Positions 41,578 to 64,000 of a DNA stretch of 64,000 bases are shown piece after piece. Source of the DNA: Clitopilus passeckerianus (taxonomy: Eukaryota; Basidiomycota; Agaricomycetes; Agaricales; Entolomataceae); NCBI GenBank assembly GCA_944990035.1, contig CALYLX010000112.1:1550001-1614000 (forward strand), given 5' to 3'. Position 1 is the first letter of the stretch, and each line of letters begins with the position of its first letter. The notes beneath the pieces are model-generated. The model did no database searches, had not been told where the DNA came from, and worked only from the letters and a program-made list of their open reading frames with translations. Position numbers and translations under genes: made by a program.

Positions 41578-42095
41578 TTATGAAAGCTTGAATTTCTCAA
41601 TGCCTCGTCTGGAATTCTAGACGATGTTGACTGTTAGTCGGTGTTCACGATGGAGAACCAGTACTGACTTTGATGAGCCTGCTCAGAAGACGAGGGACAG
41701 AAGTTGCAATGCAACATCTGAATGCTGGCATCCAGGTAAGTTGCGGGTTTAAAACGGCTTCCAGAACACGTTTTGACTTCTGTATGGATGAAATGAGCAT
41801 TGTCAGCACGAGTCACTACTTGGAGTAGAATGTAAACGCACTCGAGGCAAAAGAATTTTCACCGAGGCTTCAAGATCGGCAGGCTCCTACTATTTGCGTT
41901 AGGGTGCAGACGTACATTATGAAAAAAAATCAAACATACGACATACGTAATGGCAAGATGGTGGGAGCAGTGTTGCGAACGAGGGTATCGTATCAGGGTA
42001 CGTCTAGCCCCGGGCCTTTTCGGAAGGTAAGTTGTGAGCGGCACTGCATAAATATCCTCAAGGGTTAAGCTGAATGAGTCCTCTTCGAGAGACAT
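41578..42095 (-). CDS. Novel four-exon small-protein family, copy D (divergent)
   Basis: Exons read 42095-41940, 41886-41842, 41779-41669 and 41616-41578, giving 52+15+37+12 = 116 residues with all introns phase 0. Start MSLEEDSFSLTLEDIYAVPL; exon 1 ends RYPRSQHCSHHLAITYV. Exon 2 is EPADLEASVKILLPR, exon 3 opens KSKRVLEAVLNPQLTW and ends SVPRLLSRLIK, and exon 4 is NSRRGIEKFKLS. Exon lengths and the pattern (acidic start, basic segment ending in a Tyr-Val, A.L.P motif, hydrophobic stretch, short tail) match copies A, B and C, though identity is lowest here. An in-frame ATG also lies at 42131. The function is unknown to me. It follows MFAP1 tail-to-tail. Confidence 0.62.
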
Positions 42096-43712
42096 GAGGA
42101 TTTTGTGGTGGAGGTAAAAAGGTGAGGCCAATCGGTTCCGAGGTCGTATGGGTCTCGACGCAGTGGCAACAAGGAAGGTGAGGTGTGGAGCTTCTTAAAC
42201 AACAACAAAAACCAGATATTCGTCGGTTGCCCTCTTCCTGGGAGTATTCCTCTCAGGCGTTTCACTTCTCTGTTTCCGCAAGTGGAATTAAAGCACCTGG
42301 TCAAGAATTAGAAAAAGGGTCCATGCATCAGAATAGAGATGAAGACACTCACGGCCAATATTCCCCCCGGGTGCGAAGACAACCAGACAGAAGCTCTAGG
42401 GTACTTCTGCTAGATATTAGCAACCACCGCCACCTTCACAAGTGCCGTACTCTAGACGAGGCAAGATCAGAGCCAAAGGAGTCTCATACACGTTCAGACA
42501 GGGAAACGTTGTATGTTTGAAACGGAGCCAGAAGAGTTGACGACAGACTGCAACCGCCTGGTTGCAAGATGGCGGCCTCGAGGCGAGGATGGAGCCTATA
42601 TCTGTTCTCGAGAAACTGATCGTGACAGAGGCGCTGTCACGCTGCCAGATCAGGAAACGTTCGGGATGGATGCTGGTGGGCGCGTTCCCACAATGGTCAA
42701 GTTTGTCCAAGGCATTGCAATTCGGCGAACCTAATCACCTAGGAATGAATGTGGACTGGAGTCACAACCAGACATTCAGAGTAGTCATGTGAAGTTTGTA
42801 CTCCCTTGAAATCTGGTGGGAGTTGGACCACGGTTGGAATCACAGTGCCAGGCCAATATCCAACAAAAAACTCTGTCCGAGGACCCATTCGGGTGCTAGA
42901 TACAGTAATAGACCCGAGAAAATGGCGGTTGTGGTTATTGTGATATCATCCTCCCAGCCTCGTTTGGTTGTAGGTTGACTTGACGATGCGAAGTGCTGAT
43001 GTTTGGCATGGTGTTTGCCAGAGCCCGACTCGATATAGGCCACCGCGTCATGCCAGGAATGTGCGTGATTGCCAACGCACATCTTTGGAAAGGTCCTGAG
43101 GTGCAGAGTATTAGCCCAGCCGTAATGGTATCAACAACGGACTTGTAGAGGCCTGTGAGCGCAGGTGTTCTGGGAGAAAGAATGACATGAGCGCAACCTT
43201 GACGAAAGGGCGTCGTTGGTTTGAGTTGGGGCGCTGCCCCAGTATCAAGTGTTCCCTAGTTTGATTGGACGCACATACTTACGCGAAAAAAGACTACCGA
43301 ATTCTTACAGCTATGAGGGCGAGAGCTCAGAGATGAGAGTCGAAAACCAAGTCTGAGGAGTGAAATTGACGCGTCGAGATTCTAGCGAATCATCAAAAAG
43401 AGCCCACAACCCTCGGCTAAAAGGTCACTGCAATATGCAAACAAGTGTTTTCTAAGAGTCTCAGTGAGTCCACGGCTTCAGACGAACTGGATCCTTTGAA
43501 TTCTAGCATCATTGAAAGAAGTCTGATCATTTATCCGGATACTCTAGCGGTTAACAAGGCGAGGGTATACAAAATATGCACCAAGAAAGCAAGGTCGTTG
43601 GAAAGCAGGCGAATGTAGGTTAGTCGAATATACACAGCGGGGAATAGCATAAATTATTTTAGCATATAAAGTGGGATAGATTTTTGATTCTTCGGGTGGA
43701 GAGCCTTCAGGC
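42096..43712. other. Gene-poor stretch between family copies D and A
   Basis: This 1.6 kb holds only short ORFs without recognisable content. It contains the promoter of copy D. No repeats joining the two copies were noticed by eye. Confidence 0.5.
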
Positions 43713-44244
43713 TTATGCGAGATCTCCAAGTAGACCCCTCCAGAGTAGATTGACGCACTTCTGGACTGCTGGTTAGTAACAGATCCTGCTTTCAAGTATT
43801 TTGTGGACTCACGGCGAGGAGGCCGAAGACGATTGCACCCAGTCCAATATTCCTCACGAATGCACGAAACCCGCGTTCAGGTGGTTGCAATAACGCGCCA
43901 ACCGCTTGAAGTGGGATCTGGAAAGCTAGAAAGTTTAGAACGAGCGGACCGTGACGTGGGAAGGAAAAACGCGCACCTGGGGTTGTACAAGTTCAACGTG
44001 AGCTTCGACATAAGCGGCGTCCTGTTGTTAATGAGCACATGGACGAGCTTGATGAAAGCACGTGTCGACATACAACGTAGGAAATGTTCATCTGGTGGAT
44101 GGATCTTTGCGCCAAAGCATAAGGTGAGTATCTCTTGCGAGGAAGGTATTTGCGTTTTCTTGTCGAAGAAATGCTTAGAGCAGAAGAAGACGGTGACAGG
44201 GAATAGGCCGGGAGTTGGAAGGGAAATTCCTCGTCGTATTGCAT
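43713..44244 (-). CDS. Novel four-exon small-protein family, copy A
   Basis: Exons read 44244-44074, 44021-43977, 43917-43813 and 43760-43713, giving 57+15+35+15 = 122 residues, all introns phase 0 and 52-59 bases long. Start MQYDEEFPFQLPAYSL; a Ser-rich then basic region (STRKRKYLPRK) leads to RYSPYALAQRSIHQMNISYV at the end of exon 1. Exon 2 is DAAYVEAHVELVQPQ, exon 3 opens IPLQAVGALLQPPERG and ends NIGLGAIVFGLLA, and exon 4 is KCVNLLWRGLLGDLA before TAA. The C-terminal half could form a membrane-associated or single transmembrane helix. No signal peptide is seen. Function unknown; support comes from matching exon-by-exon copies B and C. Confidence 0.78.
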
Positions 44245-47200
44245 AGCGAAAAGTAGGGGAAATGAGTGTAAGGTCCTTGTGTTGGAAGGAGAGAACGAAG
44301 GATGGTGGGGTTGCAGCTGGGAATTCAGCGGGGTTTTAAGGATGAGAGGCCCCTGTGGAGAAACAGCCGAAAGATAGGCCCGAGAATTTGGCCTGAATCT
44401 AAGGATGGTGGGCGGCGTCAAGATCACAACTCTATTTTTCCACCGTGTGACAATTCCTTCCAGTCCCTCCTTCGTTCAAACATTTGCCTCCGTCTCCCCT
44501 GACTGAGTTCTTGAAACCAAGAAGCACTCCGCGATCAACTTCCTTCACGGATCGTGGCTTTCGTACCCCTTCAAAAAGTTCCCATATCGAGGAAGGAGGG
44601 AAAGCCTTTCTACGAAGAGGCGACTTCTAGGCAGAAACGCAGAAGCACACCATCAACGAAAGGTTGCCGATCTAGAAAATCTTATGGAAAGCGCCGCGCT
44701 CATTGCCTGCCGTCGCTCGGCTCCCTGTTGAGTAGGGTGCACGGTGCGTCACGGATGTATGAATTGCAAATGTTGTCTTTGATCGCGGCGTACTTTGAAT
44801 ACATTCCATGCATGGTTTTCAGCGACGACGTTCTGCAGATAATCAGCTGCTCCTGCCACCTGGGCCCTTCTTTGGTCCGTTAGCCAGCCTGAACAAGAAG
44901 CTATAGCGTGCAACATACTGGATATATCCTCGGCAGGTCCTTTGGAGCTCTGCAGTCCCGACCACAGGCATGGGCCCCAAGGTACCAGGGTCCCACGTTG
45001 ATGCTTCTCGCTGACTCGATGTGCCCGTACTCCGCCGCCTTCTTTCCCATGAAATAAACAACATTGCCGAATGCCGACGCGTCGGGACCGACACCATTTA
45101 TCCTTATATGGAGATGTGACATAACACGTCGGGTCACGCAATATAAGGTCAAGTCAATGTGTGGGGGCATCGTTTCCTCCCCTCCTCTCAACCTCGCCGT
45201 CCAGTGATCTTTATGTGTGTATATCTAACAAATGATAACTTTATTAGTATTTGTCACTGGAGTGAAGCCTTTTTCAAGAGCAAGCGGCGAAGATGGAGAC
45301 AAGCCCCAAAACGTCAAATTATCGCCAGTGTAATCATTGTGAATCGAAATATTGAAGACGCAAGATTTGAAGAAAGAAGAATCGAAGATAGGCTGCCTGA
45401 AGACATACCTCAACTCTGGGACTGCTCTCTCTAGTGCTTCATCTGGCTTTCTTGCGAACCGACGTCCTTGCATGGCATGCTGCAACCGTGACCGGAAGAC
45501 ACGAATTCACCTGCAAGGGTTAAAGCCTATAAATTGCCTCTATTTTGATCTCCTGAAGGTCATACCTCAACTGGAAGACATTATCGAATTTTCCACCGTT
45601 GTGAAGGATGCGTCGGAGTGTTTGATGCCACTGCTCTAAGGCTCTGGACTCGAGGCAGCCATCTGAGAGGCTGTATGCGCTCTTTTATCCGCCAGAAATG
45701 TCCTATGGTGAGTTGAGACTGTATCGTGAATTGTCTGCCCTGGAATATGGAATCCTGGGTTAAGCGTTTACGGCTTGCACGCAAAACCCTTGAAACGGCG
45801 ACACAGAAATTGGATTTTCATGCTTTTGTGAAGAGCTGGACCCGAAGATTCAAGGCGTCCTTGTTGGAGACCTATTCCCCTGTATTTTGGAAGTGTGGAT
45901 GGACGTGGCCAGCCGGAAGACGAAACAAGAACATCGCACACAATGGAAACAAACAAAGCCATTTGGTCCCCCGAAGCCGCGCTAAAAGTCCGCTGGTCTG
46001 TGGCCTCGCGTTCGACGCTCCGGGGCCTTTCATTCAGCGTTCTTTTGGTCAGAATAATTATGCCGCCTCCAGGCGAATTTTGAACCACCTTATTCTGCAT
46101 CGTGAAATAACGTCCAGACCAGCAACCACCGCAACGCAAAATTTCCCAAAACTCAAGCAATTATGGGACGCTCCAACAGCCACAATCCCCCACCAACTTT
46201 TCCTAGGCGATTCTCGATATATTTTTTCAACTTACAGAAGAAATGGCTTTTAGGATATGGCCAGATAGGGTCAGAATAGAGCAAGATAGGGACGGAACCA
46301 CCAGGACATTCACAGAGAAGCAGAAAGTCTGCACATATACACTTGTTGAAATGCAGTACGTCCAAGTCGCTTGCAAGATTTCTGACAAAGGAGAAAGTAC
46401 ACAAGCGTTATTCTATAATCTACGCTGAGCAGAAAGTCGATGGCCCACCCGACGTTCGTTCGAGCTTGCTCAAACCTCTTCGCCCCGTGGATACATTCCA
46501 CGATTTGCCCAGTTTCTCCAAAACGACTCCCATAACGATGCCACAACTGCTTTTCCCCTCCAAATGTCAAAGAAAATATCCTTTCATCTCTGAATCTTAG
46601 GCCACGACTTGACGCAATGCCTGGTGGGACCAGGTTGCCCCGCTATCCCACCGTCTCCCTGCCGCAACCTCCCAACCAATTTCTGAACGGTATTTCCTGT
46701 CGGTTTCCTTTATCACCAAGCGCCACCCGTTTCCGAAATTGTCTTGAAAGAACTGCGAGGTAACGCGACCTGGGCTTGCCCTCATCGACCTTAACGCGAC
46801 AGCCGACTAGGTAAAGGCAATCCGAGGACCTCCGAAAGACATTCCTTGAGCGAAAACCTCAAAGGAGAATCAAACTCGCCTCTCTTCTTCCCTGTTATCA
46901 ATCATCAAAGAAAACACTTCTATGTTTTACCCCGTCGCCTCATACGTCTGGTTCAGCTCGAGGACATGCCTGGGGCGCGAATCGTTCCAGCATCGCCGCT
47001 TCTACTCAGGCCTCAGGGCCCACCTCGAGTATCGATCCCTTGCAGAAAGCCTCTTGTGCCATCAGTCGTTTTCGATTGATGGCGGATATTACTCCCCAGT
47101 CACCCTGCATTCAGTGACACCTACATGCCACAAACAATAGGAATGGCGGACACCTAATTTGTTATCTCTTCTGGTTTGCACCATGTCGCCATCGACCTCT

Positions 47201-50155
47201 CCTCCTCACCTCAACGACTGGCCAAGACGCTGATCGACAGGGGAATATTTCCCATCGTGTTTCAAGACGGAAGCTGCAAACCCAGATCGCGTCCAAAGCG
47301 CATCAGCCCGTTGCGGTACGGTTTTCTCCTCTGTTCACATCAGCTCGTACTTACGGTTTTTATTGAAGACAACCCAATACTTATTGTGCCAGAATTTATG
47401 CCGCCAAAAAACCACATTTTGAGTCAGTATCCACCGTAGAAAAAAATCAGAAGAAGTCAGCTCACCATTTCCGCCATCCCACAACTTCCAAACTCACTAG
47501 CTCCAACACGATTGAGGGAGGAGAAAGGCCCGTGACCGCTGCCTTATTTTCAGCAATTTTCAATGACTTCAAAGAAACCCCTGCTCAGAAAAGTCGCCAT
47601 GTTCTTGTGGCTCCCGTTCAAGAACCGTGGCAGTTTTCTCGGATTCAAGGCACGATGAAGGCGAATGGTAAGTGCTAATGATTCAGTTAGCTCGTAGTTC
47701 GCAGTTTACTCAAGGTTAACTAGGCAATTGAACCATAGTGCTAGCAACCTTGGCTCCCATAAATTCATGGTTTCGTTGAAGTCTAGAGTTACGACAGGGC
47801 CAGGACACACCAAGCATCTCCGCCAAAGACCATCATTGGGCCGACGCAGCTTCTGTAGACGTTGAACGCCCAGCAGTTCGTAGCCGCACTAGTGGACACC
47901 CTCCATCTCTTTGCTGGCCGTAGTCGCCACAAAAAGGCGAGGTCGTCACCAGAACGCAAGGCTCTTTCCCAACGCAGGCTATCTGGCTCTCTGCCGCCCC
48001 ATCCCTAACATTCTTAGTGAAAGGAAACAGGTGCCAACAGGACAATTTCTCTCCAAAATGATCACCAGCCTTCAAGCCAGTTGGCGATCCCCAATCAACT
48101 CCCCGTCGTTGAACCATGCTCAGCTGCAGACAGCCCGCACTCGCTTGAGGTCCAAAACGGAGGCCAATACCAGCACTGCGGAAGAGCAGGACGTTGCGGT
48201 TCGAGAAATACATCCATTTCCAATCAGATTCAGATACCGCATATATGTGTTGTCACCGTCGGGATCGTCGCTTCCATTTCGAGCAACTGCCACTCAACCA
48301 ATGGCCACCCCTGGCGCTTCCACTCGTACCGCCGGATTTTCCACCTTGCCAGTCGAACAATGGCCTACATAGGCACCAAGGGCACGTCGTGGCAGTGCGT
48401 ATGCAACGTTAATTCCCTGCGGCTTCGTCGATTTGATATATATGCGGGATTTGCTGGTGAGTTGTAACATTGTTGATGTTGTACGTTTGCTGAGTGTTCT
48501 TTGCAGGTGGGTGCGCGAGGGTGATTGGCTAGCGGCTCCGCTCCGCTTGGGTCTGCCTGTGTCCGGCCAATGCGGTCGGGTAGCTTCTACGACCCACAGA
48601 ACTCAGCAATTATCACAGGCGGCCCTCCCCATCTTCCCATGTTATCAGCCGCCAAGAGCTTTTCGAATAGACCAAGTCGCTCTTGAGGCCGTTATCACCG
48701 GCCAGTGCACGATAACATGGATAGAAGGCAGTCGAGATCACTCCTCCATATGTGATGCAAGCATGAGCATTTGCTCACAATGGGTGCCGTATGGCGCCGA
48801 TGCCGATGCTTCTGTGTCATTCTGTCAGCTCAGGTCCTGACAATCCCCCTCATTGACGTGGACTACCATAAACGATAGCCCTTTCTAAACGGCGCGTCGG
48901 TCCGCTATGGCGAATGCATCATTCGAACCTTGTTTTGACGGGCGTCTACTTCCTCGATAGGCTTCGGCTTTTCGAGGTTCGGTTAGCCGGTCTAGCATCG
49001 ACCAACACAGACCAACATACGGAACCGGTACTGTTCAAAAACATCTCCCCTTGAACAGATACCGACCACAGCATCGTGATACAGCGACACAATCATTCTC
49101 GAACCCAACCGACCTCACCGCATCATGGTGAGCGGCTTTGGCGGGGAAGTGGCGCCAGGTGCATTGGTTGCACTGAGTTGGGTGGAACACAGTGGGACGA
49201 TCTGAGGTCCTTCGCTGGAGGTGCGCAGAATGAATGTATTACGCTTGATTGACGTTAGACGTTGGAATTGGCAAGTGTACAGACATTTCTCATAATTTAC
49301 GCCTATCCAACGGTATATGGAGTATTTTAGTCCACTTCTCATTGGAGTGAGTGCGGGGAAACCAAACGAATGATAATCATACTACATGCTCAAGCGGGGC
49401 GCCTTGTGGTTATTTCATCCTGCTACTTTTGAAGGGCGTCCCGAATGGTAACCCCATCGTCGAGCCTCCATTGGCTCCATGATCGCAATTTATATTCTGG
49501 AAGATGGTCTGTATAGAGTTGAGGTAATCAGCCGGCCTAGACTGAAGTCTGAAGGCACTGGTGTCCGTCGAAAGCGCAGGAGAGTGCGGCCGCACATCTC
49601 GATGGTGAGGCACAGGCTGCCGGTGTTAGACGTTGCTGTGTTATACGACTCTCGGTCGATATCACCGAGCTGTGGAGAGTGTTGGGTCGCACATGAGGTT
49701 AAGGCGAGTTGGCTGCTGCAACGGCCGTTTTCGGTAGTGTGGTCAGACCGCTGGATTGGCGCGGCCTGGGTCAAGAGAGCATAACGATGGCACGGGGTCG
49801 TTCCGTTACGGATTTGCGACGTTGAATCCATTATGGCTATCTACGATCTACTACTCTGTGTAGATTCAGAGATTGTCCCGAGTTTTACAGTGCAGTTAAT
49901 GGGTGAATTTGAAAGGCAATTTCCTTGTTTGAATGAAACAAACGCATGTTATTGCCACTCTCATTGAGATATTTGGACAAGAGGACAATAAAGGCGGGGA
50001 GGCGGCTGAGGCTGGGGAGGCCAAAGCCGGCAATGTGCGGAGTGATCGGGGTCTTGTAAACAAAGCCAGAAAAGGAAAATGGCCGTAAGCGACATAAAAA
50101 GTAAGGCGACAGTGGAAAGTCAAAACGCCAACAGACCTCCTCGAACCCTCCAGCA
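44245..50155. other. Gene-poor island, 5.9 kb
   Basis: Between copy A and HMG-CoA reductase no gene could be supported. ORFs are short (the largest about 175 codons), overlap on both strands and have no family motifs. No terminal repeats, reverse transcriptase or transposase motif was recognised. Diverged transposon relics or a non-coding transcript cannot be excluded. The promoter of copy A lies at its left end and that of HMG-CoA reductase at its right end. Confidence 0.5.
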
Positions 50156-53100
50156 ATGTTGCGTTCGTTGAGGGCAATCCTCCGTCCGTTTGCCATTCAG
50201 GCTGCTTTCTATCCTATAGAGACCATTGTCTTCTTCTCAATTGTCGGAACCTTGGCTTATTTCCATATTCTCAACGCCATTAAGCACTCTTCATTCTTCG
50301 CACCGACAACATTTGCACCACTACGACCTGGTTATGCCCTCCTCAAAGCCGGAGAATGGATCCCCGTTAGAGAACATTTCTGGAAGAACGACAAGTTTTC
50401 ACCAGTAGAAATCCAGCAATTCATATACACCGACGTCGACAACTCAATTTCTACAAAACTCGCCGAGGCCGTCAACTTCTCCCATTTCGACAACTCTACC
50501 CTCACCCAAACGATTTCCTTCCTACCGGCTCAAAAGGAGTCCATTTTGTCGCTCCTATCCTCCGAAAACACCCTTCGTCTTCTTCCAGGCGGCCCAGAGC
50601 TCACCACCGAACCCATCATTGGCGAGACACAGTCCCCCAAGTGGATTGCCTACGCCGTCCGCGCCCTCGTTATGCGCTTCTGGACTCTCGCAAAGAAAGC
50701 AGATTCGCTCGACATCTTCCTCATTCTGTTGGGATACGTGTTAATGCATGTCACTTTCTACCTCCTTATCAGACGCTCCCGTTCACTCGGTTCGAGCTTC
50801 TGGCTTCCGGCAGCCATTGTCTCCTCCTCAGTGCTTGCGCTGCTTCTCTCCATTCCCATCGCAAACGCCATCAACATACCCATTGATCCCGTTGCACTGA
50901 CTGAAGCGCTTCCATTCATCGTTTGTACGGTTGGATTTGACAAGCCCCTCCGACTCGCAAGGGCTGTGTTTTTGCACCCCCATCTCACCACACCTCCTGT
51001 TGCGCTTTCCTCGGTACCTTCCTCTGTGCCCGTACCCCTTAAGCCTGCCGCCAAGATTCTTACCGAATCCCTATCGCTTACCTACCCACCCATCATCCGC
51101 GACTACATCCTCGAAATTGCTGTTCTTGTCGTAGGTGCTTGCTCCAGGGTTGCTGGCCTCAGCCAGGTTTGCGCATTAGCCGCCATCCTCCTTGGTGTCG
51201 ATTGTCTCTTGATGTGCACATATCTTGTCGGTATACTCGGTGTCATGATTGAGGTTCGTTAATCTCCCACTTGCTAACCCGCATCATATCTAACCGATCC
51301 CTAGGTTCGCAGAATCAAGACTGTTCGCGCTATGACCAAGACCGGTCGCTCGCGTTCCAATTCGATCTCGTCCACATCCAAATCCCCGTATTCCTCCATC
51401 CCATCGACGCCAAAGCCCATTTCTCTTTTCTCCGGCAAGCCCAGTGCTATGGTTCAGCCTCCCCAACCACCTTCCATCCGTGAACGCCTCCTGGGTGTCA
51501 AGGCAAGCTCAACCGGAACACTCGGAAAGGCTAAGGATGTCGAGAAGCAGCAGGAGAACCCTGTTGCTCGTCTCAAGCTCCTTCTGATTGCTTCCTTCCT
51601 TACGCTGCACATCCTCAACCTCATTCACCCTCTTGCCGGCACTACCTACGCAAACAAGAGCCACCTCGCACGCCATGCGCATACTCCCGCTGTCAGTGGC
51701 ACTTTGAGTCTTACCGGAGAAGGTGCGAAGAAGGTCAACATCAGAGGCGAAGGTATCAGGACGTTTTGTATATGCTTGCCAATTCCGAAGGCGATGAGGA
51801 CTTGATTGTTCGTGCCAATCCTCCCATCTGGGTCAGGATGGTCGACAGCCCCATTTCGGATGCGGATGCTGCTAGCCAGGAACAAAACACCACCACTGGA
51901 ACCAAGGTCGATCGATTCATGTCCAGCTGGACCAGGCTCGTTGGTGACCCTGTCATCTCCAAGTTTACCGTCCTCCTCCTTGGTCTCAGCATCTTCCTTA
52001 ATGGGTATCTCCTCAAGGGTATCGCTGCCGGTACTGGTGCTGGCCTTCCTTTGATGAAGAGCGGCGGTGTTAGGTTCGGAGGTGATGAAGCTGAGGCTGA
52101 AGTTGAACAGATTCCCGATGGCGCCATGAGTGCTAGGTTCGCAATGAAGGTTGCAGAAGGCGCAGTTCCGACCTTCACGCTCGAAGATGTCGACCGCAAA
52201 CTGCGTGCTGCTCCTAGCCACACCCCCGTTTCCGAATTCTCTCCCAGCCCATCGACTACGCTTACCAGGACACCTTCGTTGGTTTCTCTGAAGACCTCGC
52301 CACCGACTCCCTACAAAAACGTCAATGTTACCCCTACGCCTGCTGCCCTTCCCGCCCCTGAGCCCCTTCCCAAGCTCCCACCTCCACCTCGCGGTCCTAC
52401 CAGGCCTCTGGCTGAATGTGTTGAGATCTTTGAAAACGCCGAAGGAAGCAAGAGGGAAAACCTCAGCAAGCTCAGCGACGAGGAGATCATCTTGTTGGCA
52501 CAGAACGGAAAGATTGCGGCTTATGCTCTCGAGAAGCTTATCAGCGGTGGTGAAAACGGCGTCGAAGATCTTACCAGGGCAGTCAAGATTAGGAGGGCTT
52601 TGATCTGTATGTTTTCCTCCTTTTGCCACCGCATATACTCGCATTACTGACGCCATTTTGCAGCTCGTGCTTCCAACACTCAGTCACTCGAAGACTCCGA
52701 CGTCCCCATGACTGACTACGACTATACCAGAGTCATTGGCGCTTGCTGCGAGAACGTCGTCGGTTACATTCCCCTTCCTCTCGGTATCGCCGGTCCCCTC
52801 AATGTCGATGGTGTCTCATACCCCATACCCATGGCTACCGCTGAAGGCACACTCGTCGCTTCCTGCTCTCGTGGTTGCAAGGCCCTCAACGCCGGCGGAG
52901 GTGTCGCAACTCTCGTCACCCAGGATGGAATGACCCGTGGACCTGCCATTGACTTCCCCAGCGCCATCCGAGCTGCCGAGGCCAAGGTCTGGATCGACTC
53001 CCCGAAGGTTACGTTACTCTCAAGGCTGCATTCGAGACCACCAGTCGCTTCGCCCGCGTTAAGCAGCTGAAGACCGCCATTGCTGGACGCACGCTCTACG

Positions 53101-54054
53101 TTCGATTCATGACCGCCACCGGTGATGCCATGGGTATGAACATGATATCAAAAGGAACAGAGAAGGCTTTGGACAAGATGAGGGAGTACTTCCCCGACAT
53201 GGACGTCCTCGCTCTTTCTGGTAACTATTGCACGGACAAGAAGCCTGCTGCTATCAACTGGATCGAGGGTCGCGGCAAGAGCGTTGTTGCGGAGGCTGTT
53301 ATCCCTGGCAAGATCGTCAAGACTGTTCTCAAGACTTCGGTAGCGGCGTTGTGCAACTTGAACATCAAGAAGAACTTGATTGGTAGCGCGATGGCTGGAA
53401 GCATTGGTGGATTCAACGCACATGCTGCTAACATTTTGACCGCGGTCTTCTTGGCCACTGGTCAGGATCCTGCTCAGAATGTTGAGAGTTCGAACTGTAT
53501 GACCTTGATGGAACCGTAAGCATGTTCGTCCTCATGCATGCAACCTCGTCTGATGCGCTTATAGGACCAACGACGGAGAGGATCTCCTTATGACTGTTAC
53601 CATGCCCTCTATCGAAGTAGGAACTGTTGGTGGTGGTACTATCCTTCGTCCTCAGGGTGCTATCCTCGACATGCTCGGCATCCGCGGCGCACATCAAACC
53701 GACCCCGGCCAGAACGCTCAGAGGCTCGCTCGTATTATCGCAGCGGCTGTCATGGCCGGTGAACTCAGCTTGATGAGCGCTCTCGCTGCTGGCCACTTGA
53801 TCAAGGCGCATATGGCCCACAACCGCAGTCAGCCGAACACCCCCGCTCCCGGTGGCAGGAACGCAACTGCTGTCTTGGCGCATCAGCAGGTGACGACTAC
53901 GACGACAGAGGTCGTTGAAGTGGTGAAGAAAGAAGAGGTGGTGAAGAAGGAAGAAGCTGTACCGATAGAGGCGCAATCGCCGCAGCAACCACAGATCCAG
54001 CCTTCCCTGACTAGATCAGAGAGTTCAGCCAGCCTACCGCCATACGAGAAGTAG
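50156..54054 (+). CDS. HMG1: HMG-CoA reductase with sterol-sensing domain
   Basis: Start [20 protein letters not shown] with eight or so membrane segments, including the sterol-sensing region [20 protein letters not shown]. Introns sit near 51252-51303, 52604-52663 and 53517-53565. The catalytic half shows [33 protein letters not shown] (catalytic Glu), [10 protein letters not shown] (Asp), DKKPAAINW (Lys) and [12 protein letters not shown] (His), so all catalytic residues are present. The protein ends SASLPPYEK after a Glu/Val-rich tail. It makes mevalonate from HMG-CoA in the ER, the rate-limiting step for ergosterol and isoprenoids. Two single-base frame breaks occur in homopolymers (TTTT at 51764-51767, CCCC at 53000-53003); adding one base at each restores a normal enzyme, so they are probably sequence errors. 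Confidence 0.96.
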
Positions 54055-54567
54055 ACGGGGCGCTACGTTTGCTCTCTCTATATCCTCCCTTTTAGATGGG
54101 TAGGGCCTGATTCCTTGACGATACACATACGCATATTCTACTCACTTGGTTATTATCGATGCTTTCGCTGGTTTGGTTGTTGCATTTTATACTATATTCG
54201 CATCTTTTGCTTCGTTCATACAACATTTTGCATTATATCTGATCGGGCATTTATATCTCTTTTGCTTTTGCAGCACCTTTTACAGAGTAACCATCGTTTT
54301 TCTCGCCTCCCATGTATCCCCTAGTATTGGAATGAAACTTCTCTATGACACTCCGAGCTTCATACAAGGGCAGTTTTGATATGTAGCTCCCACTATAGCA
54401 TGTACCATGCTGGACGACATGCAGACCAATGTACGATCTTGTTGACTCCTGTTGCTCGAGCACCTCGTGTCGTCTACAGGACCTTGTTCTGAAACATTTC
54501 AGGCTCGCCTCCTTTGTCGAATTCATCTATATTTCTATGGAAAGAATACGTTCTATTTCCCAAACCG

Positions 54568-56682
54568 ATGGACTCACCACACAGCTACGCCCCAGTTCAA
54601 GCGGGACTGCGAATTAGAGGAGGCTTTAATTCCGAAGGTTCGTCGTTCTTGGCATCCACTATTCAGGGTTCTGATCTGCTAATGAGGCTACAGGCAGTTT
54701 TGTGTGGGGTTTCAAAAAAGTGACGGATGCTTCTGTGGATGGCCTTCTGCTTGTAGCACAGGTCTATCGGTCGTTTTATCGCTCACAACTTGGTCAACTG
54801 AAAACAGACCCGGATTTCTTTGCACAGTTCTGGCCACCCATAATCCAGAATTACTTCTCGATGTTGCAAATGGCAACAGCGAATCCTTGGGGGCCGCGTT
54901 ATCTCGACCAAAATACGTATGCGACCAAATAAGACGCGTTCTAGACAACTCCATTCGCAGCTACGTGCATTGGTCTGCCGTGGAGCGGGTCTTGAGGCTA
55001 GCTGGGGCTCTCGAGTTTGTTCCACCCAATCCAGAAGTCAAGCACATGCGGAGTGAACTTGTTTACTTGGCCGCAACATTCACGATTCAGGCGATAAAGG
55101 AGAAGTCTGAACATCTATGTCGCCATGCTCTTCTAACGGATCCTCGATTCAACAGATTCTTTCCTGACAAGGTGCGCTACCCCACTAAACGCTCGAGTTT
55201 TGATGGTGATCTTTACTCTTAGACAATCGATACTTCTACTGGCCAGACTTCCTTCAAATTTCGTCGCGAGCGTCAGGCCGAGTGGGACGCCCTTTGCAAC
55301 CAGCCTGACCTCGAAGGAGCTTGCGCCAGGCTTCTTTGGTATTCATTTGATGATTTACTGGTCTACAAAGCCAAAGGCGGTGCAAAATCCAAGCTTGATG
55401 GACCACCAATCGTCGAAATTCCCGCTGCTTTTAAAGGGCTCGGGAATACGGAAGCCCAACAGATGAACAGCTATCTTCATGAAACCCTCTCTGAGCATAG
55501 CGAGTTGGTTGTGAGTCTCCGTTCTAATTTCTGATGGATGGTTTTCTTGAAACTTTATTCAGTGTTTCTATATGTGCTTCGGCGAGGTTGGAAAACCCGA
55601 AGAATGGTGTCAATACAAAGATCTGGTCCAATACTACCAGAACCAAATGTCGTAGCTCGATTCTTTTAAGGTTGCTCTCGAAAAGGCGACCTTTGAGAAG
55701 CATGTCAAGACATTAGATGCATTCACTGCGAAGTCCAGCACAGGGCCAAAGAAGATCTGGAAAGAAATCGAGTTTGTAAATAGCCCGCTTTCTAAGGCAT
55801 TTAAGGTGAGAATGCCCATCTGACTCCTCCATACTGTCTGATAGCGCTACAATAGTCAATTGACTTTGAAATTTTACCTCCGAAGTGGAAGGTTATAGAG
55901 GATGCATTAGCACTGAAACCGGAAAAAGAGCAAAAGAAATTTTCTAGCTCTCCCGGAAAGAAAAAGTTCAGATGTTCTTCCGAAGTTTCGCGTACCAAAG
56001 TGCTTCCCACAGAGAGCCCGCCCGCTGACATACGGCCATATAATCCACAGACCGTGACCCAACGGCCTACAGAATCAGTCGAGGCGTCTCCTCCGAGGGT
56101 GGGTCCTAAACTCAAGACTCGCCCGAAAGTACCCACTCCGAAAGCCAGTACCGAAGAGGATCTCACTGGGGACGTAGGCATTGCCGTCGCAGACTCTGAG
56201 GGCCCTAGCCAGGTTAAGAAAAGGACCTATGATGTCTTGAAGAGGATCTTCCTGTCGGCACAGGAACAACGCCCCGTCGATTGTCTGGAATTCGAAAAGG
56301 TGGCAGAGATCATTCTTTTCCCGGGACTTCGTATTTACCGTTGCCATTTTGACAGGCAATGGGTGATCTCGGATTCAGTGTCGGCGTTCGTTACGGTTCG
56401 AGCGTCACCTGTGTACCAAACTCGTCGACCATTCCCAGTAGGTCAATCCCACCAATCATCTACAAACCATTTTATCTTACCTTGAATCCGGTAGATGGCC
56501 GTTGCTTCGTTTATCACCGGTAAGTTCACCCGTACTAGTTCGAGGCAGAGCATACTGAAAGGGCAAACAGGCGACATGGCAATGACACCTACATGTACCA
56601 ACCCATGCTGCACGTTATTGCTAACAGGCTCCAGGAACATTATGGTTGGGACATGGGCTCCTTCTCCTGCGCACGAGAATGA
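54568..56682 (+). CDS. Uncharacterised fungal protein, C-terminal HicA/dsRBD-like module
   Basis: Probable start MDSPHSYAPVQAGLRIRGGF, spliced to SFVWGFKKVTDASVDGLLLV. Later exons give PELLLDVANGNSESLGAALS, RRVLDNSIRSYVHWSAVERV and RQAEWDALCNQPDLEGACAR. A Lys/Pro/Ser-rich linker precedes a compact C-terminal module: CLEFEKAMGDLGFSVGVRYG, SSVTCVP, then DGRCFVYHRRHGNDTYMYQP and MLHVIANRLQEHYGW ending SFSCARE. This pattern (F..AM..LGF....GSSVT....., HR.HG, I..RL....GW) recalls a fungal domain with the small HicA-like or dsRBD-like fold, from memory only. The splice frame around 54770-54830 is unresolved. I do not recognise a function; it may be lineage-specific. Confidence 0.6.
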
Positions 56683-56821
56683 AATTCATATCATAGGTGT
56701 ATTTGATTCAATATGTAAAATGTAAATGTACAAATACGATCTGGTCATGGTATCCCCAAGATTTAAAGCCCGAATGGGAGTTGTAAACTACCGCTGCTTC
56801 TGAAGATCAACCTTGCATGGA

Positions 56822-57531
56822 TCAGCAGTTGTCTTCGTGGTTCTAGGTAAACTATATCAGCGGACTGGTAGCATCAAATTAAAGGACCAACTCACAGGGT
56901 CAATCTCCCATTCTACGATGTTGTTGGTGACGAATCCATAGCCTCCTTGGGTAAGATAGCCGTCTCCACAGCCTTGTAGAATCGTGTTCAGGGAGGTAAC
57001 GCAGAGGTTAACATCCGAGAACTTGGGAGGGACGGTAGATCTGTTTGACGAGTGAGCGTAATCCTACAGGAATGAAGCCATACTGACGGCTCTCCGCTAT
57101 GGCGCACTGTGAGTTCCCAGCGGTAATTGGTTTGGTCGGTGGTTCCATCAGAGTGGAATGGCACGCAGGCGCTAATCTTGCCGCCTTATAAGTGGAATAC
57201 TGAAATTAGCATGTTGATACTGGCGGACATGAAGGATCGTACCAATTGCGATCGGCTTGCCAGCAACCTGATGGAAGATAATCAGAAACCTGGAATCCCG
57301 TTTATCGGCAGAGAACTCTATCTGACCTGTTGACAGATTGCGCTTGCAATTGACTTGCCCTCAGAGACTTTAGACTTTAGCCCTGAGGTGTGACATTTGC
57401 GAATGGTGGCTTGGCTGGACACGCCAAGGGCAAACGCTGCGAGGACCTGCGAAAAGATGACCAGGGAGATTTTCAACGGCGGTCAAAACGGCGAAAGAAG
57501 CTGCACTCACTGTTGCAAGTGCGCACTTCAT
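56822..57531 (-). CDS. Small secreted protein of unknown function
   Basis: Start MKCALAT spliced to VLAAFALGVSSQATIRKC makes a clear signal peptide with cleavage near SSQA. Following exons give KSKVSEGKSIASAICQQ and ISACVPFHSDGTTDQTNYRW, ELTVRHSGEPS, then NLCVTSLNTILQGCGDGYLT and QGGYGFVTNNIVEWEIDP, ending NHEDNC at TGA 56822-56824. Conserved-looking cysteines suggest disulphides. Length is roughly 180 residues. This fits the small secreted protein class common in mushroom genomes, some of which act as effectors; no such role is claimed. The splice sites around 57190-57070 are uncertain. Confidence 0.6.
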
Positions 57532-60500
57532 CGTAGAGTGAAAAGCAGATGTAGAAGTAGGAGATGGGGCCAAACATAGCTGGAAATTGCAGCTTAAATA
57601 GCCTTAATAATATCAGAATCTCCACTCCCAGGATCATGTTGGTAGGGCTTGGCAAGGTACATTTAACTGTCACTGTCAATGTCAAGAAGGAGCAGGGTAT
57701 GGTATCGAATAGACAAGTTGAGGCATTTGACCGAGATTTTGAAAATCGCGTCGCGTAGACTCCTACGAAGCGCAGAGAACGTTAAAAATAGAACAAGTGT
57801 CCGAATGTTTGTACACCTACCAACGATCTAGTTGAAAAAGCTGCTGAAAGCTCAGGCTCCACCGAAACCGAAATTATGCAGGTGGCTGGAGTTATGCAGG
57901 TGTACCTGGCAGATACTTCAGCTGGCATTAGCTTATCACACCAAAGGCGCGGAGTCTTTGATTGGAAGCCCAATCAGCCTCTCCTCAGAACGTTAAGTTC
58001 CTGAACATGATTTTAGCAAGATGGACATGTCAGACGTCGGGAAAGCATGGAGGATATGGAGCGGAGTTCAGCAACTGATGTCGACAGGTTGTTGGAAGAT
58101 GTTGGCCATGGCTGGTTTAAACATGAGGCGCAAGCAATCCGAGTGCCTGCTGGAAGGTGAAGTTGACAATGATGAAATAAGGTAGATGGAGGGTCGGCCA
58201 TTCTTCGAGAAAGTGAAGCCACTAGAACTGGATGCTCACTATGTAGAGCTGAGATCTCGTTCGTAGTTGATTTGGACCCCAGGTAGTATTCAATATAATC
58301 TCGACATAAAGTGGAGATATTATGGATATTTTCCCAGACGCTTGTCATCGTATTTTCTCGCCGGCCATGCCGAAGGCTGCATGCACATTGAAGTGTCGCA
58401 CCTCAGGGGTGGCCGTAGAGTCCATGGTTGACCTTCAAATAATCGCAATTACGTGCCGGTGTACTCGGCGAATACGAGCACTGTCATAGTGAGAAATTGA
58501 TCGCTGAAATGCAGCTGGTGTGTGGGCGTGGGGTGAGAGTAAGAAGTCGTAGCATAGTGGCCGGTGCAGGAAATTTTGTTTGGGTACGCATTTATGGAAT
58601 ACAAGGAAGTTGAGTCGTCTCGTATGTCTAGAAGGATGGTTCGGAGCGCTAGTTACGCTGGATATATGCGGTTGTTTCATGCTGGTGGAACTGATGGTCG
58701 CCGACTGTAAAACTCTAGAGTTAGAATAGGTGATATATCGTTGCCGAGGCTACAAAATAATGGTTGGTGTTACTTACCAGTTGTACCCAACAAAGCTTTT
58801 GCGGCCTAGGAAATGTCACTAGTCTCCCAATAAATCTACAGAGGAGGAAGCCGGGACCAGCCAATTGCCTTCAAAGCACCGCGCCGTTTGTTGCACGGCC
58901 GAGATAAATGGTTCTTGTGGGCTTGGGACTTGAAGGCGAAAAGACGAAAGCCCAGGATGACTTGCGCCTGGAGTGGATTATATGCAGGCTGAGTTTTTTG
59001 AGCGTCGTTGATATGGCATTTGGGGCCTTGTGGTCGGTGTCGAGTTTGCCCGCCGTTGAAACAGCAAAACCACAGATTCATGTTGGGGGAAAAAGTCGCC
59101 ACATGCGGGTTTGGAGACGGTTGGTCGTTTGTGAATTGGGGTTGAATTGTTAAAGGCGTAATGCTGCATTTATTCCGTAAGAGATGGTGCTTGTAAAAAA
59201 TCGGCCTATACGACCAACCAGGAATCCCAACGTTTATTTTAGTGGTAGATTTCATGTCCTCCAATGCCACCATAGGTGACCTTCAACTATAAGCTTTCTT
59301 TGTGCGAGTAGGCTGACTTGTGAGGGTGTAATAAACCGTTCCCGGTTTGCGGCTTGACCGTGAGGTTTGGCTTTGTGATATTCATTGTCTTTTCTTTTTG
59401 TCGAGCTCTTGAAAGGAAGGAGAAATGCTGTAGGATGGTCGCGTCGACGCGGTGGCCAGCAAGATTTGCCGTTGGGCAGACGTGGGATTTGTTGATCGAA
59501 ATGACCATTTCGTCTAACTGCCACTCTTGTTCTCAGACACTCACGCGCTCTTGTCTGCCTAGTTTGCTTGCTGCTAGCTCTTGCGCTTGAGTGCAAGTAT
59601 GCGATCTTCAGGCTCCTTCTTCTCCGAAGACTTACCAGCAATGAGGATGCTATAGTTTCTACGGTGGCTTTTCATTGGACCCCCGCGGCTGGACCCCAAC
59701 GCCTTGAAGTTCAAGGTGTCGACCAAATACTTTCCTTTCAACGACGGTAAATCTGGCGGAGAGCCAGGCAAAGGTTGCACATGTACGCTTGACGTTTGTC
59801 TTTGGAAGGCCAAGATTTGACATATCGCCTCAAGATCCACCCTAAGGTTGCGGGCACCCTTGTATCATGTTCAATGGGCATGGTCTTCACGGCCACAAAA
59901 TTTCACCAAGCTTTGACGACATGTTCTAGCACACTTTCAAGAATTTCCAGATAGTCAGGCTGACTCTTGAGGACACTCTTTGGCCTTGATGGGCTTGTGG
60001 TTTGGGACCGAGGCAGAGACCTGGCAGTTTTGGGCGCACACTGGGAGTCACACACTATGAGGTTCGTAATCATTTGTTGTTGATTCTGTTATGAGTTTCC
60101 ATTTTGTTCTTGGGATGGCCAGTTCAGTTCTATGCAATGTCGTTCAGATGTTGCGCTCCGATTTGGCTTCCAAATGCATTCTTGCCGGTTCTCAGTGATG
60201 TTGCCGATGACTGATGTCTTCTTTCTTCAAGCATGTTCAAGGGAGCACCTTCGTCAAGACGCGGGGCACAGGCAGACACCAGAAAACGAGCAGGACAACC
60301 ACATGGAATCGAGTCAACTTACACTTTGAAACGTGACCCGATCCATGTCACAGTCATGCCGAGAAAGGCGCGCAGGGCGGCATCCGCGGCGGCATGTTCC
60401 CACGGGCCCCCGAGACGGAGCCTAAGTTTCCACAGTAAACAGACACGCTTGAAAGTTCAAGGAATCACGGGGGTATTATCGGGACGACGCTTCGGGTAGG

Positions 60501-61141
60501 AAGATTGCAGTGACTGAGCCCCAAGAAGGCTATGGGAAAACTGATCGACCTAGGCTTCTCTTTAGTCAAAGGTAGTTCTGTCGCCAGAGTTTGATTGAAT
60601 GACTAGCTGATGTCGGCGGTTCAGGTCTTAGGCGTGGCGAATGTCGGATATGATGGCTGCGGCGTTCTGCGTGTTCTGTACAAGCTGGTTCCGAGATGCT
60701 TCTCACTGCATTCGTCTCTGGCTCCAGTACGGAGAGCATGGTCAGCGAGGACGAGACAGAAGAATCGTACCCCTCGGAAGTGTTTTCAAGGAAGTCGGCC
60801 TAAGAAGGTTGTGAACTGTGCATCCCAGGGAATTCGGGCCGTCGACACCTTCTTTTCCCTTCTCAAGATCACGGTTCTGCCAATGACGAAGCGCACTGCG
60901 TTTCTTGTACATTTGGTGTTCGCAGTTGCCTTTTGCGTGGCGTTGACTGGCTTGTGAAACTGTTTTGATTGGAAAATGGGGTGTTGGCGTTGGCATCACG
61001 CGGGTCATGGGGAAAGATATGGTAATGAGTGTGTAAACGCCGTTCGTCGCAAATCAATGTCAATTAATGGACTCATGCAGGGTCTGCCTCCATGGTTCGA
61101 CCGAGACTTGTTCCTCAACCTTCACGTTCATTACCGGCCCA
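57532..61141. other. Gene-poor stretch, 3.6 kb
   Basis: Only short, unrecognised ORFs on both strands. One region (about 58000-58680 minus) has faint local similarity to the small-protein family but no intact model. The promoter of copy B lies at its right end. Confidence 0.5.
61034..61084 (+). promoter_or_regulatory. Promoter block of family copy B
   Basis: TAAACGCCGTTCGTC at 61034-61048 and ATGCAGGGTC at 61075-61084, 26 bases apart, precede the copy B start by 57 bases. The same two elements with the same spacing precede copy C. Confidence 0.7.
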
Positions 61142-61697
61142 ATGCATTTCGAGGAAGAGCTTGCGTTTGCGATCCCGGGATACAACCCAAGCTCCTCAAC
61201 GTTGGACTCTTATTCTCGCTCGCCACCTACTCGCAAGAACCACGCTCGTTCGCCACGACAATCACCTCAACGCTATGCGCCGTATCCGGTGCCGCAAAAG
61301 TCTGTTCGCCAGATGAACATTTATTACGTTGTAAGTTGGACGTTTTCCTGTCTAGCTAGCGCTCAGCACTCAGCATTGACCTGTTGTCGTGTAGCCCCCA
61401 ACATATATTGAACAGCGAAGAGAGGTTTATCGGCCACCTGTACGCTATCCCTTGGCAATTTCATGCACACTCTCTGATCCCTGACAGTCACCCATTCATG
61501 CTATCGACGCAATACTGCACCCTCCAAGAAACGGTCTCATTGGGGCAAATATGGTTGGCGCAATCCAGTTCGCCCACAGATTGTTTGGCTTTCTCTTCGT
61601 ATGTCCTCCAGCAACACAGGCGGCGTCTATCTAACGCTGTCTCGCCCTCCAGAACTACGTCGACATCTTGCGCAGAATAATGCCTGGAGAAATATGA
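61142..61697 (+). CDS. Novel four-exon small-protein family, copy B
   Basis: Exons 61142-61330, 61395-61439, 61488-61598 and 61653-61697 give 63+15+37+14 = 129 residues, all introns phase 0 (64, 48 and 54 bases). Start MHFEEELAFAIPGYNP; exon 1 ends RYAPYPVPQKSVRQMNIYYV. Exon 2 is PPTYIEQRREVYRPP, exon 3 opens SPIHAIDAILHPPRNG and ends FAHRLFGFLF, and exon 4 is NYVDILRRIMPGEI before TGA. An alternative, shorter exon 2 using GTTTAT at 61425 is possible, but the chosen GTACGC donor gives the 45-base exon shared by all copies. The hydrophobic exon 3 end could be a membrane helix. No known domain is recognised. Confidence 0.8.
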
Positions 61698-62102
61698 ACC
61701 TATCCGTTATTTACCACCAAGACGTTGACAAGGACTTTAGGACCCCAGACATGGTTGCAGTAGCCGCCCAAACCCCGAATACATATCATTCATATATTCT
61801 TCAATATCTCGTCGTTTTAATGTATAAATGTTTTGTATAGATTATTATGGAAAACCAATGCTCTTTTTTCAACATACATTTATGATTAGAAAGCGAAAGT
61901 GGCCCAAGTGTCGAGGAATTTGCCCAGCGGATTCTCGACTGCCCCAGTTTTAAAGGATATATAGCTAGGATATTTCTAGAGGATCAAGAATAAAGACGGT
62001 AATAATGTACAGAGGAGGCCAAATGAATACTCGAGATGGAAGGTGCGAGTAGAATACTAGTGCAGGCGAATTTTAGGACAATGAAACGCAATATGAACAA
62101 GG
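61698..62102. other. Spacer between convergent copies B and C
   Basis: These 405 bases separate the facing 3' ends of copies B and C. No ORF or repeat is supported. Confidence 0.55.
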
Positions 62103-62625
62103 TTAGTTTTGTGCCAGGACCGTCCTGCGCAAGTTCTCAGCATGTCCCTGGAGAGACTGGTGAGCGATTTTCAACTTATACTACAGGATTGTGGACGTAC
62201 GGCGAGGAAACCTAAGACCCGGTTGAAGAGGCCTAGGCCAGCTACAATGAAACGCCTTTCGATCTGAGGGGGATGCAAGATGGCGTCAAGAGCAGGTTCG
62301 GGAGCCTGTTGAGGTTGTTAGACATGTTCGCAGAAGGTTTGCTGCTAAACTGACGGCCGGACGATAAACTTCTCGGGAGTCTTCGATGTAAGTAGAATCC
62401 TACGAGTGCAAGGTCAGACGATTACGATGCTAGAAAAAGGTTGATAATTACCACGTAATATATATTCATCTTGTGAATGGATCGCTGGGGAACCATGTAG
62501 GGAGCATAACGTTGGCGCGTTCGAGAGGAGCGAACAGCTCCAGGTAGATAGCTAGTAGCGAGGGAGGATTGCGATGGTGTATAGGCAGGAATTTCGAAGT
62601 CGAAGTCTTGGTCGAACACGTCCAT
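62103..62625 (-). CDS. Novel four-exon small-protein family, copy C
   Basis: Exons 62625-62452, 62399-62355, 62305-62201 and 62147-62103 give 58+15+35+14 = 122 residues, all introns phase 0 (52, 49 and 53 bases). Start MDVFDQDFDFEIPAYTP; exon 1 ends RYAPYMVPQRSIHKMNIYYV. Exon 2 is DSTYIEDSREVYRPA, exon 3 opens APEPALDAILHPPQIE and ends LGLFNRVLGFLA, and exon 4 is GHAENLRRTVLAQN before TAA. It is closest to copy B, faces it tail-to-tail 405 bases away and shares its promoter block, so the two probably arose by inverted duplication. No known domain is recognised; the tail may be membrane-associated. Confidence 0.8.
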
Positions 62626-64000
62626 GGGTGCCAATGTGTCTGGTGTTGAAGCAAAGGATGGTGGTAGTTTGAAAAAGGAGAGTGCGGCGCCGTGACTGTA
62701 TTTATGGACCCTGCATCCTGGTACCAATCGTTGATATTGGGGGACGAACGGCGTTTATACTTGTTAGGATGGTTTCTGTGGGATTTGATCGAGATTGGTT
62801 TGGTCTCCGAAGCTGATGTGCCTCGCTTCCTATCAAGCACGCTGGTGGTGCAGAACATCTCTGGAATGAATTCTGCAAGATGCTTTTTATGACAGCGAAG
62901 CCGGACGAAGCCAGGGCTACCCAGTGCTGCCACCTGGGAGGAGAGGAAGGTTTGCTTCACTGATATAGGCCAGGTCTTGTTGCTCTGATGGTGGCGCGCT
63001 AGAAAATTTGCGGTGTAAGCCTTGGGAGCCGGGGAATTTGCTTTGGGAGACTTACTGTCGCGGGCCAGTCAACGGTTACTCTTGTTGTTGACTGCAGATG
63101 ATTCTTGGCTTTTGACGGCACAAATGGTGACGGTTTTTAAATCCTGGCGGAAACAGCAGTCTGGCAGCTATTATATAGAGCAGCGCATTGATGGTCTATG
63201 ACTCCGTAGCCTCAAAAGCGGCTGCGTTCACACCATTTACATCGTTTTCGGTGATGCTTTGGCCACGACAGCAACGGCGCCCAGATAGCCAAATATGGAA
63301 ATCCGTCGGGTTCCCACGCTGAGTCAAGGCGCTACGGAACGCTGGGAATATCACCACTCACGGTGAGTCAAGCCACCGAGAACATACTGGAACCACAAGG
63401 AGCACTTGTCAGGATGCTGTGATCATCAGATTGATGAGAAGAACGCACACGGGGATGTTGGCCTCGAGTATGCTTCTTGAGAGTCAACAATCACGTCGCT
63501 AGAGGTATACAGGTGTCACAACCAGCCTGAAAATCGCTGCATGAAGGCCCAAGATATCAAGAGAGTGCGTGAAGACGTCTGCATGAAGGCCCCTTCTGGC
63601 AACGGTTGTCTGCTCTGGTGTAGAACGTCCCCTCTTCTGAGTCGCGGATATGATTTCTCTGGACAGCCTTAGCCCCCGTATGCATTCCCTACGTGAACCT
63701 TGACGTGAACTGCGAACTGTGCATCAAAGCCTCCGAAATAATTGCGAGCCATCTTGCGGATTGTCACCAGAGGTCTAGGCATGTCTGACTCCCTGAGGGA
63801 GCGCGAAGGTCATCTGTGTTGTGTCCTGGTGCCGAAGCCGTCGTATATCCTGTTTCCGGTGGTCTGATGAGGAACCACAAAAATGGGTCAGTGGCAAGAA
63901 GGAGTGCTCTTAAGCAAGCTCTAGTGCGCAGAGTACTGAACGGATTGCGGCTTCCTTGCTGGCGGATTAAATGTCGAAGAATGAGAACGTGGGATTGACT
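62626..64000. other. Upstream of copy C, then unassigned sequence
   Basis: Contains the copy C promoter at its left end. A 14-base direct repeat, CTGCATGAAGGCCC, occurs at about 63537 and 63580. No gene could be supported to the window end. Confidence 0.5.
62707..62757 (-). promoter_or_regulatory. Promoter block of family copy C
   Basis: On the minus strand TAAACGCCGTTCGTC (62757-62743) is preceded by TA, making a TATAAA-like box, and is followed after 26 bases by ATGCAGGGTC (62716-62707). The start codon is 81 bases further on. Both elements and their spacing match copy B exactly. Confidence 0.7.

Follow-up and report, generated by a model that had tools for sequence, protein, structure and literature searches.

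Four small genes lie within one 64,000-nucleotide stretch of Clitopilus passeckerianus DNA, referred to here as the window, and raise the question of whether they belong to a protein family of their own and, if so, what kind of protein such a family would supply. The sequence-only reading had described a four-exon family encoding proteins of 116–129 residues, and all four genes, copies A to D, splice as it claimed, the motifs that it quoted being found in the sequence at the places given.

62103..62625, minus strand: copy A, 122 aa; exons 62625-62452, 62399-62355, 62305-62201 and 62147-62103 (spliced model, alignment)
61142..61697, plus strand: copy B, 129 aa; exons 61142-61330, 61395-61439, 61488-61598 and 61653-61697 (spliced model)
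43713..44244, minus strand: copy C, 122 aa; exons 44244-44074, 44021-43977, 43917-43813 and 43760-43713 (spliced model)
41578..42095, minus strand: copy D, 116 aa, a distant member; exons 42095-41940, 41886-41842, 41779-41669 and 41616-41578 (spliced model)

Each copy consists of four exons separated by three phase-0 introns of 48–64 nt with GT..AG ends. The second exon measures exactly 45 nt in all of them, and copies A and B are arranged tail-to-tail.

Copies A, B and C share 38–45% identity (45% for B and 42% for C against A), and D shares 23–30% with its relatives, which bears out its earlier description as a weak member. The phmmer scores are 92.1 bits for A–B, 80.9 for A–C and 63.4 for B–C, and those involving D are 15.9 bits with A, 18.0 with C and 9.7 with B. 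For all six pairs, none of 1000 shuffles matched the observed score, the best reaching 6.1–12.1 bits; since all three D comparisons exceeded 1000 of 1000 shuffles, D is distant yet related above chance. Where A, B and C differ from one another, they do so mostly at third codon positions, as for coding sequence, with counts at positions 1, 2 and 3 of 48, 38 and 81 (A–B), 58, 42 and 83 (A–C), and 56, 38 and 83 (B–C). The dN/dS ratios among these three copies are unusable, dS being saturated.

The family extends beyond these genes: the four loci originally proposed are real but undercount it, as at least nine loci (D, C, B, A, E, H, I, F and G) are found within a 192-kb part of one contig (C111). 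No further convincing locus was found elsewhere in the 64.8-Mb genome by a search that divergent members escape. Second-haplotype copies are present for E, F, H and I, and the modelled set comprises 11 sequences (A–D, E, E', F, F', H1, H2 and I), G being left unmodelled. All 11 display four exons and three phase-0 introns, including I, which was modelled by hand with a poor second donor (GTCAAA) and a 28-codon last exon. Within this single genome, the family sequences diverge strongly while the four-exon layout stays.

This layout was also used to find members. A scan of 216,737 bases for splice chains yielded 315 chains, which were scored with a profile built from A–D, E, E', F, F', H1 and H2. 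Eight places exceeded 5 bits, namely the profile members F', B, E', A, C, H2 and D (D at 81.8 bits) together with I, which reached 21.2 bits despite its absence from the profile; the limits of the scan (last exon of at most 29 codons) had been set after I had been seen. An earlier exon-chain enumeration for I, with limits of 8–18 codons for the last exon that were too tight, gave none. In the reversed-sequence control, none of 201 chains scored. A later profile containing I pointed to two extra weak places, at 4.3 and 3.2 bits, which are not counted as members. In addition, 246,737 bases were scanned by motif, which gave 11 places, eight of them in the family (A, B, C and E', with F' and H each on two contigs); the donor lies 15 codons past the P-Y motif in all eight, against 21, 6 and 7 codons in the other three. 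Locus H and locus I are absent from the genome-search listings obtained with A, B, C, D, E' or F as queries and were recovered via profile and splice layout, so that exon layout can expose family members once sequence similarity is nearly gone. Several candidates were rejected: a dispersed transposon (the DNA of copy D has one genome match, and A, B and C each occur once), the weak matches L019 (C75) and L022 (C99), where a three-frame reading by eye revealed no family exon, and weak places on C141 and C66, dropped as weak matches only.

The surroundings of the genes contain the following further features.

61034..61048, plus strand: 15-base element TAAACGCCGTTCGTC, about 0.1 kb upstream of B
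62743..62757, minus strand: 15-base element TAAACGCCGTTCGTC, about 0.12–0.13 kb upstream of A
56822..57531, minus strand: probable secreted protein gene, a neighbour outside the family (model by eye, weak Pfam GBD_Y3 match)

The 15-base element is identical upstream of A and B, and these are the sole two places in the window within two mismatches of it. No upstream motif common to the whole family was found across nine upstream regions: the best 7-mer occurs in five of them, a count that 6 of the 200 random sets also reached, and 8-mers shared by E, F and G (three of nine) are within the range of random sets. The neighbouring gene matches GBD_Y3 with an E-value of 1.2e-4 and a score of 23.1 bits that falls short of the curated cut-off (28), and more copies of it are located on C111 at about 1630 and 1672 kb and on C6 at about 32 kb. 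A probable HMG-CoA reductase gene is another neighbour of the family.

The proteins share a plan in which the N-terminus is acidic and aromatic, a basic stretch is rich in Arg, the core centres on RY-x-PY and the second exon is short. Net charge is −3 to −6 over the first 15 residues and +3 to +9 over residues 16–60 in all 11 sequences. The distance from P-Y to the exon-1 donor is 15 residues in eight of the 11 (A, B, C, E, E', F, F' and H2), that of E and F being taken from collinearity with E' and F'; the exceptions are H1, with the same spacing but P-H, D, which is devoid of P-Y, and I, with 21 residues. The earlier impression that these proteins contain no recognisable domain held throughout: above cut-off there was no match in Pfam for A–D (0 of 4) or for E', F, H1, H2 and I (0 of 5), in NCBIfam for 10 sequences, or in PHROGs for A–D, and two profiles, one of 4 sequences and one of 10, gave no match to PDB sequences at an E-value of 10. 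The Pfam score of F against Dpp_8_9_N (12.9 bits, E 0.11) lies below the cut-off of 27. Scanned with the A–C exon-1 alignment, collections of viral and of prokaryote contigs yielded no homologue. Structure models, each covering a single exon, predict two helices for exon 3 of B (on the A–D alignment; mean pLDDT 79.9) and no secondary structure for exon 1 of A, at a low-confidence pLDDT of 61.

The reading to which we give most weight, with a probability of roughly 0.4, is that these small proteins are intracellular, have a putative adaptor or regulatory role and form a family that evolves fast and has expanded locally. Such proteins would be partly disordered; their N-terminal motif and core would bind partners, the basic stretch may contact nucleic acid or acidic surfaces, and a C-terminal amphipathic helix, in line with the helical prediction for exon 3, could pair with another protein. 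Local duplication would generate new copies, perhaps along with their neighbours, followed by divergence in a birth-and-death cluster. At locus H, selection would favour, or at least tolerate, very different alleles. Fungi have locally clustered, fast-evolving orphan gene families, which resemble the present one in having copies in one region, birth-and-death evolution and no known domain. Unlike them, this family keeps its four-exon phase-0 layout while identity between branches falls to about 23–30%, and its acidic N-termini carry no hydrophobic leader discernible by eye.

Locus H is hyperdivergent between the two haplotypes available, whereas E and F are not. Its two copies disagree at 95 of 297 exon sites (32%) and at 32 of 167 intron sites (19%; P=0.003), they share 48% of exon-1 residues, and exon-1 changes are spread almost equally over the codon positions (19, 19, 21), in contrast to those of E/E' (6, 3, 13). 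The upstream flank, from 250 to 1200 nt, differs by only 11.5%. These figures would suit a self/non-self recognition cluster with H as its specificity locus: hyphal fusion or mating would bring together the products of different alleles or paralogues, and the difference between them would be sensed. This is nevertheless unlikely, as the comparison involves two haplotypes only and dN/dS (NG86) is 0.53 over exons 1–3 and 0.63 in exon 1, not above 1. Moreover, the downstream stretch, from 250 to 800 nt, is also very divergent (0.40), so the divergence peak extends beyond the gene. Mushroom MAT-B pheromone/receptor loci likewise group small genes whose alleles diverge. However, no C-terminal CaaX box, the mark of mating pheromone precursors, was seen by eye in the 11 models, and linkage to MAT-B was rejected, the listed STE3 receptor matches being on other contigs (C66, C69, C106, C154 and C155), as was linkage to MAT-A, with homeodomain matches 1.43 Mb away on C111 and others on C19 and C139.

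Anchoring in a membrane through a C-terminal hydrophobic stretch, as suggested earlier, is rather doubtful. In a 19-residue hydropathy scan of the 11 sequences, C peaks at 1.88, the only one above the usual cut of about 1.6, and A reaches 1.44, both in the C-terminal part. The other nine peak at 0.23–1.08, some at the N-terminus, and at loci E, F, H and I exon 3 is shortened to 18–19 codons. Exon 3 of B is modelled as helical, and an amphipathic helix fits the numbers better.

Neutral decay, that is, functionless gene fragments drifting apart, is improbable and already disfavoured for E, which is under purifying selection, with 8 amino-acid changes between E and E' against 15.5 expected (P=0.0004) and a dN/dS of 0.16 (NG86) or 0.23 (YN00), well below the value near 1 that would have spoken against the family. 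Together with the surplus of third-position differences between A, B and C, this supports the coding nature proposed earlier, as far as tested. For F/F' there is no more than a hint of selection, with 10 changes where 13.3 are expected (P 0.07; dN/dS 0.35 by NG86 and 0.62 by YN00), and decay would also accommodate the even codon positions of H exon 1 and the state of G, where exon pieces are present on C111 with a broken exon-1 frame. Against decay, the splice layout is retained in all 11 modelled sequences, and the reading frames of H are open in both copies, although random placement of its substitutions keeps exons 1–3 open in only 5.7%. The frame break in G may be an assembly error, given that the overlapping haplotigs C6 and C12 show 73 mismatches and 77 gap openings over 30 kb. 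Exon 1 of I stands at 87% between the haplotypes, and the copies of I on C6 and C12 are out of step through an indel within exon 3.

A selfish cluster of spore killers or other drivers is very improbable: the genes resemble the multi-exon wtf meiotic drivers of Schizosaccharomyces in being small, clustered and quick to diverge, and G has no second copy listed in searches with E' and F, but its frame break may have the alternative origin given above, and these proteins possess at most one hydrophobic stretch according to the hydropathy scan, whereas wtf proteins have several transmembrane helices.

Few of the genes that decide whether mushroom strains are somatically compatible are known. It is quite unlikely that the cluster is an undescribed mushroom self/non-self system in which H alleles would specify identity and the other copies would form a paralogous reserve. 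A family of small proteins whose genes are clustered, one locus being hyperdivergent, represents a concrete, testable candidate for somatic compatibility.

The motifs on which the sequence-only reading had built a family of four small, four-exon proteins were confirmed in the window sequence, and the four genes, A–D, yield spliced products of 122, 129, 122 and 116 residues. In the splice models, each gene contains three phase-0 introns of 48–64 nt, and exon 2 measures 45 nt in all four. A, B and C share 38–45% identity with one another, and D shares 23–30% with these three; in each of the six pairwise tests, the observed score was reached by 0 of 1000 shuffles, and the models are therefore homologous beyond chance.

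All four loci are thus real, but their number had been set too low, as at least nine occur on C111, the contig carrying the window (genome examined: 64.8 Mb, 160 contigs). With A as a genome-wide query, the exons of A, B and C were returned together with one weak match on the same contig (E 0.48), and B gave an additional match on contig C6 (E 0.12); on full reading, family exons were visible at both weak matches. D was absent from the genome-search matches of A, B and C. The further members are as follows, E' and F' being second-haplotype copies:

C111:1674935 (allele E' at C6:35790): E, from a search with exons 1–2 of the C6 copy
C111:1690519 (counterpart on C6): H, from a profile scan, then frame and splice layout
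C111:1697245 (counterpart at C6:58240): I, from a profile match (E 1.7), then read and modelled
C111:1706807 (copies on C6 and C12): F, from the same search as E
C111:1783009: G, from the same search as E

The exons of E, E', F and F' measure 201, 48, 54 and 39 nt, phase 0 throughout. With a scan value of only E 0.098 on C6, H was accepted on its reading frame and splice layout, and exon 1 of I is 87% identical between C6 and C111. The order on C111 is D, C, B, A, E, H, I, F, G, spanning 192 kb. Because divergent copies escape similarity search, nine is a minimum, and further members may exist elsewhere in the genome. C111 itself was read over 1500–1614, 1673–1677, 1689–1692, 1705–1709 and 1781–1785 kb, the middle part being covered by C6 as the other haplotype.

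A finder of four-exon phase-0 chains, run on 216,737 bases that comprised the window with the 50 kb on its left, C6 in full and 10 kb of C12, produced 315 chains, which were scored with a ten-sequence profile (A–D, E, E', F, F' and both copies of H). Eight places exceeded 5 bits, namely F', B, E', A, C, the second copy of H, D and I, the last reaching 21.2 bits with a profile lacking it and with finder limits chosen after it had been spotted by eye. Reversed sequence gave 201 chains, none above 5 bits. Including I in the profile added two places (4.3 and 3.2 bits), not counted as members, and on reversed sequence gave none above 3 bits.

The proteins have a common plan: in 11 sequences, net charge lies between -3 and -6 over residues 1–15 and between +3 and +9 over residues 16–60, and in most of them a core RY-x-PY follows this basic stretch. 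A loose scan for this core in 246,737 bases gave 11 places, eight of them belonging to the family (A, B, C, E', F' twice and H twice, the last two counted doubly because C6 and C12 overlap); the donor lies exactly 15 codons past the core in all eight and in none of the other three. As had been claimed, no known domain was recognised; none of the library profiles matched above its cut-off. From the alignment of A–D, exon 3 of B is predicted to form two helices (mean pLDDT 79.9), and no structure was predicted for exon 1 of A (pLDDT 61). The tree places H beside I (support 100/98) and joins D to E and F (99/98); support for the E–F fork is 81/73.

C6 and C12 carry another haplotype, and the assembly holds unjoined overlapping haplotigs: C6:48668-78748 and C12:1-30000 represent the same 30 kb at 99.44% identity (73 mismatches, 77 gap openings), which suggests base-level errors, chiefly indels. 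Indel errors are thus probably present in the assembly, and the broken exon-1 frame of G may be a base-level error; an indel in exon 3 puts the copies of I on C6 and C12 out of register with each other. C6 also contains a repeated unit of ~1.3 kb (17390-18747 and 47509-48776). Between haplotypes, E and E' show 22 differences (dN 0.032 and dS 0.194 by NG86; 0.035 and 0.152 by YN00), with 8 amino-acid changes against a random expectation of 15.5 (P 0.0004), and F and F' show 10 against 13.3 (P 0.07; dN 0.040 and dS 0.115 by NG86; 0.050 and 0.080 by YN00).

Divergence between the two copies of H is higher in exons (95 of 297 sites) than in introns (32 of 167; Fisher P 0.003). It amounts to 17% in the nearest 250 nt upstream and 11.5% at 250–1200 nt, and downstream to 24% in the nearest 250 nt and 40% at 250–800 nt. 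Changes in exon 1 are spread about evenly over the three codon positions. For exons 1–3, dN/dS is below 1 (NG86 dN 0.35, dS 0.67), and dN exceeds intron divergence (JC 0.20–0.24), short introns being partly constrained. Both frames are open; were these exon 1–3 substitutions placed at random, 5.7% of the trials would leave them so. As judged from two haplotypes, constraint on H is strongly relaxed at the least, and the locus may be diversifying.

The small genes are interleaved with copies of a neighbour, and the following genes lie among them:

window 50156-54054, + strand: probable gene for HMG-CoA reductase, located between C and B; its first ORF matches the sterol-sensing domain
window 54600-56700, + strand: apparent gene adjoining the former
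window 56822-57531, - strand: probable gene for a secreted protein that matches the glycan-binding domain GBD_Y3 below the cut-off
C111 ~1630 kb, C111 ~1672 kb and C6 ~32 kb: further GBD_Y3-like copies

The catalytic part of the probable reductase was recognised by eye, and the one ORF tested in the adjoining gene, 54704-55222, has no Pfam match. The GBD_Y3-like gene of the window lies 3.6 kb from B and the ~1672-kb copy ~2.5 kb from E, and none was listed genome-wide outside the cluster region at E 0.01; duplication of neighbours and small genes as blocks would be the simplest reading. The same 15-base element lies ~0.1 kb upstream of both A and B, with no other window site within two mismatches, and CGGGATAGG, common to the upstreams of E, F and G, is by itself within the range of a random control. 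STE3 receptor matches occur on five contigs, and Homeobox_KN matches on the cluster contig (C111:156138-164993) and at C19:50075-55152, the latter set probably a haplotig. Both kinds of match are in keeping with a basidiomycete, more closely one of mushroom type.

The family is therefore real, locally expanded and fast-diverging. On the favoured explanation, with a probability of roughly 0.4, its members may act as small adaptor or regulatory proteins, combining a disordered acidic-aromatic N-terminus with an amphipathic C-terminal helix; a recognition role would be a bolder and rather improbable reading.
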